From assembly GCA_963969365.1 (NCBI GenBank), contig OZ017757.1, forward strand, positions 2,232,001-2,296,000: 64,000 nucleotides of DNA. Reading direction: 5' to 3'. Origin of the DNA: Asterochloris sp. CNOR1 (Eukaryota; Chlorophyta; Trebouxiophyceae; Trebouxiales; Trebouxiaceae). Shown here in pieces: positions 49,296-50,599 of this stretch. Both the position numbers and the translations under genes were made by a program. Within the stretch, counting starts at the first letter, position 1. Each line of letters begins with the position of its first letter. The notes under the pieces were generated by a model. It saw only the letters and a list, made by a program, of their open reading frames with translations, was not told where the DNA came from and made no database searches.

Positions 49296-49882
49296 GAGGG
49301 CTCCGTACTGCTCATGACTTTGCCTGCTGTCGCTTGTCTGCTTACATTCTCAGCTCCTCAAAACCACTCTGGGCGATTGGACCTGACCCGAAGCGTCTGT
49401 ATCCGCTGGCAGGACCCCTGCCTTATTCCCCTCTGTACATGCTCAGTCTGCTATGGACTTCATGGTCAGACATCTGTAGGGTTTGCACACCAGGTGGGCT
49501 GGTGCCTGCTTCTGGCATTGTCTGGAGCTTCTGATGAGCGTGCTCGGCGTGTGACGCTTGCTAGTCCCCTTTTATCAAACAATCGTTCTAGCTGGTATAT
49601 GCTTCTGTCAGGTGTGCCAGTGGCCAGTGTACTAAATGCTCCAGGCTCTAAATGATTTGCTTCAGGCCCTTGGCACCCACAGAGGAATGCCGCCAATAGA
49701 CCCGGACGGCAGCTAATTGCATTGCATGACCATGCCATTGCTGTCACTGTGTAGCTAGCAGGGAGGAAGCATCAGCAAGCGGAGGCGGCATTTGGAGGCA
49801 TGCAAATTTGCAGGGTTTCTGTGCTGAAATTTTCAAGGACTGCCTACAGTGTCTAAACATCGACGGTCACAAAACCTTATAT

Positions 49883-49985
49883 CGTGTCCTGTGCAGAATA
49901 CACTGGCAGAGTGTTAGATTCGAACTCACGCCCCTTTCGGGACCAACTTAGCAGGCTGGCGCCTTAACCGCTCGGCCAAAGACAC
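49883..49985 (-). tRNA. tRNA-Ser(GCU) with a 22-base insert in the T stem (copy 1)
   Basis: Read on the minus strand from 49985. The acceptor 5' strand is GTGTCTT and the D arm follows (GCC/GGC). The anticodon stem CCAGC/GTTGG carries the loop CTGCTAA, so the anticodon is GCU. The long variable arm CCCGAAAGGG is that of a serine tRNA. The T arm is GTGAG-TTCGAAT-CT. The expected CAC comes only after 22 further bases (49894-49915), and is followed by AGGACAC and discriminator G. Removing the insert restores a perfect T stem (GTGAG/CTCAC), a 7-bp acceptor stem with one G-T pair, and G73. A pol III TTTT terminator lies a few bases after G73. A and B boxes are intact. Confidence 0.9.
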
Positions 49986-50300
49986 CTGCCCATATACCAT
50001 GTATTCCATAACAACAACCAAAGTTGGTTTAGTCTGCAACAAGAACAGCTCATTCTGAAATGCGTCCTTTCGCCTGAACAAACTGTATAGGCCCCCTCCG
50101 GCAGCCACATGCTGTCTGAAGGCGCCTCTAGTTTGTTGCTGTCCATTGGTTGATCCAGGCCTCTGCCCCACTGAACCTCTCCCTCCTTCTTACCCATGCT
50201 AACGTGTGCTCTGGGATGGACAGGCTTCTGAGATTTACACTGAGATGGGGTGTCCAGGGCTGAGAGGTGGCACATTAGTGGTTTGTCTGGAAAGAGAAGC

Positions 50301-50482
50301 TTTGCAGCAAACAGGCTTAGACCTTGCAAGCAGCATAGCCTAACTGTTGGGCTTTTTCGTGATTGACCACCCTCTACCTCCCCATATCGCCTTTGCAGCA
50401 AACAGGCTCAGACCTTGCAAGCAGCATAGCCTAACTGTTGGGCTTTTTCGTGATTGACCACCCTCTACCTCCCCATATGGCC
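50301..50482. repeat. 91-base direct tandem duplication
   Basis: Two units, 50301-50391 and 50392-50482, start TTTGCAGCAAACAGGCT and end CTCCCCATAT plus four bases. They differ at about two positions (CTTAGA/CTCAGA and TCGCC/TGGCC). The near identity indicates a recent event. The unit lies between the two tRNA genes and contains no recognised gene. Confidence 0.93.
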
Positions 50483-50498
50483 TTTGCTAGCAAAACAT

Positions 50499-50599
50499 CG
50501 TGTCCTGTGTAGAACACACATTCCGTGTTAGATTCGAACTCACGCCCCTTTCGGGACCAACTTAGCAGGCTGGCGCCTTAACCGCTCGGCCAAAGACAC
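50499..50599 (-). tRNA. tRNA-Ser(GCU) with a 20-base insert in the T stem (copy 2)
   Basis: Identical to copy 1 in every mature position read, from GTGTCTT at 50599 to AGGACAC plus G at 50499, with anticodon GCU. The insert (50510-50529) sits at exactly the same place, after CT of the 3' T-stem strand. It is 20 bases long and its centre differs from copy 1. A TTTT run follows G73 on the minus strand. Flanking DNA outside the tRNA is not shared with copy 1, so the unit of similarity is the gene itself. Confidence 0.9.

Follow-up and report, generated by a model that had tools for sequence, protein, structure and literature searches.

The window, a 64,000-nt stretch of contig OZ017757.1 of the green alga Asterochloris sp. 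CNOR1, carries two tRNA-Ser(GCU) genes on its minus strand, each with a short insert in the 3' strand of the T stem. The genes and the elements discussed below are:

49985-49883, minus strand: tRNA-Ser(GCU)-1, full gene, 103 nt
49916..49985, minus strand: 5' exon of gene 1, nt 1-70, positions 1-62
49894..49915, minus strand: putative intron of gene 1 at 62/63, 22 nt
49883..49893, minus strand: 3' exon of gene 1, positions 63-73, CAC AGGACAC G
49918..49921, minus strand: gene 1 central helix, exon strand GAAT, positions 57-60
49896..49899, minus strand: gene 1 central helix, intron strand ATTC
49911..49914, minus strand: gene 1 inner helix, 5' strand ACAC (partner GTGT, 49900-49903)
49871..49874, minus strand: gene 1 TTTT, likely Pol III terminator (40-nt control run)
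50599-50499, minus strand: tRNA-Ser(GCU)-2, full gene, 101 nt
50530..50599, minus strand: 5' exon of gene 2, nt 1-70, positions 1-62
50510..50529, minus strand: putative intron of gene 2 at 62/63, 20 nt
50499..50509, minus strand: 3' exon of gene 2, positions 63-73, CAC AGGACAC G
50532..50535, minus strand: gene 2 central helix, exon strand GAAT
50512..50515, minus strand: gene 2 central helix, intron strand GTTC (the U-A of gene 1 is U-G here)
50525..50528, minus strand: gene 2 inner helix, 5' strand ACAC (partner GTGT, 50516-50519)
50492..50495, minus strand: gene 2 TTTT, likely Pol III terminator (40-nt control run)

An earlier sequence-only reading of this DNA had reported 22 and 20 extra bases at 62/63, restoration of the T stem, the acceptor stem and G73 upon their removal, and a TTTT run after the restored end. 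All of this was confirmed. The insert follows nt 70 of the 81-nt tRNA, corresponding to 62/63 in standard numbering, and this placement is unique in both genes; neither insert lies at the canonical position 37/38. Excision results in one identical 81-nt sequence from both genes, with an acceptor stem of 7/7 pairs, a T stem of 5/5 pairs (12/12 in total in each gene), G73 and the anticodon GCT, and TTTT is present at 49874-49871 and 50495-50492. As a chance control, the 5' part was kept and followed by random nuclear DNA; removal of one segment of up to 22 nt then yielded 12/12 pairs in 14 of 3000 trials. The B box comprises positions 52-62; the insert starts directly after its end, and the B box is intact in both genes. 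The GC content of the window ranges from 55 to 63% per 2 kb, and a 91-nt unit is repeated twice in tandem (98% identical, window 50300-50481) between the two Ser genes.

The same reading had named an intact tRNA-Ser(GCU) gene elsewhere as part of what would speak against it. Searching the 56.4-Mb genome with the gene region, the D arm and the spliced tRNA revealed no uninterrupted tRNA-Ser(GCU), although a diverged copy with a disrupted D arm could have gone unnoticed. Besides the two window genes, the gene-region and spliced-tRNA queries hit one Leu gene in the whole genome; the D-arm query, with two mismatches allowed, recovered the window pair together with three Ser genes of other anticodons and four non-tRNA matches. 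AGC and AGU codons are decoded by tRNA-Ser(GCU), and the two window genes should therefore be needed.

Splice motif and splicing endonuclease genes

In tRNA introns with a bulge-helix-bulge motif, exon nucleotides -6 to -3 relative to the 5' splice site pair with intron nucleotides -6 to -3 relative to the 3' splice site; the geometry used here was derived from the 37/38 case. Both window inserts form this motif in the register fixed by the cloverleaf. The central helix is paired at 4/4 in both genes (GAAU/AUUC in gene 1, GAAU/GUUC in gene 2), and the change from U-A in gene 1 to U-G in gene 2 keeps the pairing. The inner helix, between intron nucleotides +2 to +5 (ACAC) and -10 to -7 (GUGU), is also paired at 4/4 in both, and the 5' bulge of 3 nt consists of C61, U62 and the first intron base. 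The outer side of the motif is relaxed, since only the pairs G49-C65 and U50-A64 can form. For neither precursor is the minimum-energy fold predicted by ViennaRNA the bulge-helix-bulge form (-35.7 and -32.7 kcal/mol for the precursors vs -19.1 and -18.4 for the motif form, written without the D stem); the minimum-energy fold of the mature tRNA-Ser(GCU) likewise departs from the cloverleaf.

A tRNA_int_endo profile search of the genome resulted in two loci. The SEN34-like exon matches the Sen34 chain 6z9u_A (E = 4.8e-7), retains Tyr, His and Lys, which we take to be the catalytic triad, and has 10 homologues in a large protein set, two of them with 91-92% identity. The SEN2-like exon matches the Sen2 chain 8iss_B (E = 5e-4). 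A candidate for the Sen54 N-terminal domain is weak (25.6 bits at a cut-off of 24) and contains an internal stop. A Sen2/Sen34 endonuclease, of which one exon per subunit was read, appears to be present in the genome.

We consider it very probable, judging from the sequences, that the window inserts are true protein-spliced tRNA introns at the ectopic site 62/63. Pol III would transcribe the tRNA-Ser(GCU) genes from their A and B boxes, both of which the insert leaves whole. In the precursor, GAAU before the 5' splice site would pair with AUUC or GUUC before the 3' splice site, and the beginning of the intron would fold onto its middle part (ACAC/GUGU); the result would be a bulge-helix-bulge motif with a relaxed outer side. 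The tRNA splicing endonuclease, with Sen2 and Sen34 as catalytic subunits, would cut both sites, and a tRNA ligase would join the exons. The 22 to 24 further ectopic introns in 17 more nuclear tRNA genes may depend on the same machinery for their removal.

Ectopic inserts in nuclear tRNA genes across the genome

The assembly comprises 56.4 Mb including organelles in 21 contigs, two of which, C20 (110,056 nt) and C21 (215,390 nt), look organellar from their size and tRNA density. Using sequence and pattern searches and a local scan, we read through 34 nuclear tRNA genes; the catalogue is partial and represents a lower bound, it is biased to genes with an intact D arm, and many isoacceptors, among them initiator Met, Glu and most Leu, are absent from it. 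Introns away from 37/38 are found in 19 of the 34 genes, with up to three per gene, so that 17 nuclear tRNA genes besides the window pair have inserts off 37/38. Altogether there are 26 ectopic and 11 canonical introns, or 24 ectopic introns if each Gly T-arm insert is counted once. The genes are distributed as follows:

Ser-GCU (two genes): 62/63
Leu-CAG-2: 11/12
Trp-CCA: T arm, 7 possible shifts
Ile-UAU: T loop
Thr-UGU: 69/70
Met-CAU: 65/66 and canonical
Ala-AGC-2: T loop
Phe-GAA (two genes): T loop, 56 nt
Asp-GUC: 59/60 and a second near 65-67
Pro-AGG (two genes): canonical, 47/48 and T loop
Gly-GCC (two genes): canonical and T arm
Tyr-GUA: canonical and 51/52
Ile-AAU-1: canonical and 47/48
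Ile-AAU-2: 32/33, 44/45 and 50/51
Arg-CCU: canonical and 50/51
Canonical intron only (3 genes): Lys-CUU (two genes), Val-UAC
No intron (12 genes): Leu-CAG-1, Ala-AGC-1, Ser-CGA, Ser-AGA, Arg-ACG (two genes), Asn, Cys, His, Gln, Pro-UGG, Thr-AGU

The best placements include 11/12, 32/33, 44/45, 47/48, 50/51, 51/52, 58 to 60, 62/63, 65/66 and 69/70. Three introns are present in both Pro-AGG genes and in Ile-AAU-2, two in five other genes, and two or three in each of the two Gly genes. After excision, all 12 acceptor and T-stem pairs are formed in 22 of 24 gene models (22 interrupted genes and two uninterrupted controls), the exceptions being the T stem of Phe-2 (4/5) and the acceptor stem of Arg-CCU (6/7). 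As excisions were picked to restore the stems, the weight rests on the controls with random DNA and with shifted motif registers. For the other single-insert T-arm and acceptor cases, the random-downstream control gave, out of 3000, 8 hits for Trp, 1 for Ile-UAU, 5 for Thr, 0 for Met, 0 for Ala and 3 for Pro, and for Phe 0 out of 800. A TTTT run lies within 40 nt downstream of 23 of the 24 modelled genes (Trp lacks one), compared to 808 of 20000 random nuclear 40-mers.

Solutions with two excisions are found too readily; their use was confined to Gly, where the model is doubtful, and Asp, where both inserts were read by eye. In the two Gly-GCC genes (L071, C8:134417; L072, C17:1466054), the T arm closes fully only when two introns are taken out and a 2-nt exon, CC, is kept; between the copies, the first part of the insert is 75% alike and the second 47%. 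The two Phe-GAA genes (L073 and L075) carry T-loop inserts of equal length, 56 nt. One excision leaves a G53-U61 wobble in Phe-1 and a T-stem mismatch in Phe-2, and the boundaries of these inserts may therefore be more complex.

Several candidates were left out of the 34. A Ser-UGA locus (L043, C10:822993) has intact D, anticodon and T arms, and no matching 3' acceptor strand was found downstream of it with one excision; it is permuted, multiply interrupted or dead. A Trp-like and a Gln-like fragment near other genes look like pseudogenes. The fragments L099 and L100 were set aside, as was L105, for which there is no ARAGORN call. Fifteen Cys-like copies (L022-L027, L046, L048, L050, L053-L055, L065-L067) were treated as a repeat, with ARAGORN calling tRNA-Cys for several of them; if they were counted as genes, the ectopic share would be 19/49. 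These dispersed tRNA-Cys(GCA)-like copies have a conserved tail, approximately CACCCCCACCCAGGGTATAAATTGGG in the copies examined with their flank, and look like a tRNA-derived SINE, while the true Cys gene is probably L031. L056, L058, L059, L060, L110 (judged by eye) and L114-L122 (nine, checked) are pattern matches and not tRNAs, and a pattern search for initiator Met gave two matches, L112 and L113, neither of which resembles a tRNA gene. A Pro-AGG gene, the Ile-AAU gene with three introns and a Gln-like fragment are clustered within 0.65 kb (C17:1838430-1839073).

Seventeen ectopic introns have a unique placement. Four were dropped for a motif-guided choice or a doubtful model (Ile-AAU-2 introns 1 and 2, placed with guidance from motif and paralogue, and Gly T-arm introns), leaving a strict set of 13. 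In this set, the central helix is paired at 42 of 52 positions, compared to a null mean of 19.9 in random nuclear DNA (0 of 20000 draws reach 42), and the inner helix at 33 of 41, compared to a null of 15.5. Complete central pairing (4/4) is found in 7/13 introns at the predicted register and in 0/13 at each of seven other registers. Without second paralogues, 10 introns retain 32/40 central pairs (0/20000 draws). The 11 canonical introns are without the strict motif (mean 2.45 of 4; 4/4 in 1/11).

It appears very unlikely that the inserts are removed by an activity other than the splicing endonuclease, for example an unknown nuclease or self-cleavage. The inserts measure 11 to 56 nt, well below the size of group I or II introns, and in 10 of the 13 unambiguous introns the motif forms 3 or 4 of 4 central pairs exactly in register. 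Such an activity would find support in the inserts without a good motif, namely those of Phe (Phe-2, 2/4), Thr (2/4), the second insert of Tyr (1/4) and the Gly T arm (3/4 in the best of four introns), and in the introns of the Guillardia nucleomorph, described as spliced and in many cases without a defined motif (PMC3978253, PMC4090602).

Paralogue pairs and the status of the interrupted genes

The mature sequences of paralogues are identical for Ser (81/81), Leu (82/82), Ala (73/73), Pro (72/72), Gly (71/71) and Lys (73/73), and agree at 72/74 positions for Ile-AAU and at 69/73 for Phe. Their flanks (up to 50 nt) are 39 to 61% alike, compared to 50.6% (s.d. 5.5) for random 50-mers, and ectopic introns at matching sites are 47 to 75% alike, compared to 47% for random 20-mers. 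Both differences in Ile-AAU are the two sides of pair 29-41 (G-C to A-U), and two of the four in Phe are the two sides of pair 6-67 (C-G to U-A); through the remaining two, a wobble becomes a pair and Phe-2 is left with one T-stem mismatch. The inner helix of Pro intron 2 differs between paralogues by G-C to A-U. Leu-CAG and Ala-AGC each have one intact and one interrupted copy with identical exons, 0.4 kb (Leu-CAG) and 1.1 kb (Ala-AGC) apart. Since exons are identical or nearly so, some changes are two-sided and flanks are at random level, the exons appear to be under selection as the spliced product.

That comparison bears on the alternative that the window genes are pseudogenes carrying a small insertion, with the genuine tRNA-Ser(GCU) located elsewhere or absent from the assembly. 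An insertion in one of many synonymous copies is usually read in this way (PMC4090602); our catalogue is partial, and the searches may have overlooked a gene whose D arm is broken. However, the window genes show no pseudogene-type decay in their stems or copy identity: the acceptor and T stems are kept, the exons agree at every position next to random-level flanks, and the motif is exact in both genes. Three whole-genome searches found no intact tRNA-Ser(GCU), and the same verdict would also strike the only catalogued genes for Trp, Phe, Asp, Ile and elongator Met. We regard the pseudogene explanation as very unlikely indeed. Hardly credible is an insert kept in the mature tRNA as an odd T-arm extension, in a molecule that works or is processed otherwise: the Rfam tRNA family does align to the unspliced gene at 50599 across the whole model (35.4 bits, with non-standard acceptor pairs), but the acceptor and T stems of the unspliced genes fail (zero-intron scores of 2.5 and 7.5 of 24.5), and Leu and Ala paralogues without the insert exist.

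Splicing of the inserts remains our preferred explanation. The earlier proposal that a non-canonical tRNA intron system operates in this green alga is supported by the motif, the 17 further genes and the paralogues; that it operates, with transcription, cutting, ligation and use in translation, we infer from the restored cloverleaves, the exact-register motif, the paralogue comparison and the exons of two endonuclease subunits.

Interrupted genes of this kind were poorly recognized by ARAGORN and the Rfam tRNA family. ARAGORN found no tRNA in the window; it called Ser(gct) from the spliced window genes and made no call from the unspliced ones. The gene at 49985 matched the Rfam tRNA family with 31.2 bits over model positions 7-64 only. 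All 24 spliced models were called by ARAGORN, with Val, whose model was then one base short, lacking a proper anticodon. Among the 24 precursors, 11 were called: the two uninterrupted genes, the three with only a canonical intron and six with ectopic introns (Leu-2 and Phe-1 with shifted ends, Ile-AAU-2 misread as Val, and Tyr, Ile-AAU-1 and Arg with the canonical intron recognized). With introns allowed, nothing was returned for 13 of the 19 genes with ectopic introns, and algal tRNA gene sets from standard tools may therefore be incomplete. A whole-genome Rfam tRNA search, in which 63 of 857 candidates were scored, missed the window genes and is thus of no use for counting nuclear tRNAs.

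Relation to known tRNA intron systems

The sequence-only reading had assigned T-arm introns mainly to archaea and some red algae, to which nucleomorphs (Guillardia) have to be added; the closest system is that of Cyanidioschyzon merolae. Introns are reported in over 62% of the nuclear tRNA genes of this red alga, at least 12 of which have several (PMC9602550). Both algae have short introns, several per gene, that are spread across the D, anticodon and T arms (PMC3978253, PMC9602550), with bulge-helix-bulge or relaxed motifs and a eukaryotic Sen2 and Sen34, whereas Sen54 is described in C. merolae and has only the weak candidate here. Unlike C. merolae, the host here is a green alga with a 56-Mb genome. 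Permuted tRNA genes are a further feature of C. merolae; the comparison here covers the interrupted genes. Multiple putative introns per gene at scattered positions, the C. merolae-type trait, are seen here in a green alga.

In the nucleomorph of Guillardia theta, studied by Kawach et al. (2005), a gene can likewise contain up to three very short introns, which occur in the D and T arms (PMC4090602, PMC3978253). Insertions of 3 to 24 nt at non-canonical sites are reported to be excised (PMC4090602), as confirmed by sequencing of RT-PCR products (PMC4090602, PMC3978253). Its introns sit in a reduced relict nucleus, many without a defined motif, whereas most of the unambiguous introns here (10/13) pair at 3 or 4 of 4. 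Archaeal non-canonical introns, described in several Crenarchaeota, share the motif logic and the sites off 37/38 (PMC3978253); the host and the endonuclease architecture are different.

Nuclear tRNA genes in an odd arrangement are also described for the green algal prasinophytes and Auxenochlorella, but these are permuted (PMC3978253, PMC12636532), and permuted genes in the tabulated green algae are nearly always so at 37/38 (PMC3978253). Those of Auxenochlorella were found after a tRNAscan-SE set proved incomplete (PMC12636532), and tRNAscan-SE is the annotation tool named in the genome papers on Trebouxia A48 and Coccomyxa viridis (PMC12712428, PMC10693582). A 2014 review states that green algae have almost no atypical introns, its table containing one case at 27/28 in Ser(TGA) of O. 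lucimarinus, and that Cyanidioschyzon is unique in combining permuted and variously interrupted genes (PMC3978253). Among titles and abstracts, mostly of non-subscription literature, we found no report that ectopic tRNA introns are widespread in the nuclear genome of a green alga. The mechanism has a precedent in Cyanidioschyzon; for its scale in a green alga, this search gave no earlier report.

If the introns are spliced, a green alga carries the ectopic-intron trait on a wide scale. This would add one more exception to the idea that the eukaryotic endonuclease, by measuring from the tRNA body, is confined to 37/38. Tentatively, and with some doubt, we suggest that this core green alga may have acquired on its own, or retained, a freedom of tRNA splicing like that of archaea, with most of its nuclear tRNA genes interrupted at many positions, intron gain or loss still going on, as in the Leu and Ala pairs, and an exon as short as the two bases in Gly-GCC. 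With their intact and interrupted copies, the Leu and Ala pairs make the gain or loss of tRNA introns directly testable.
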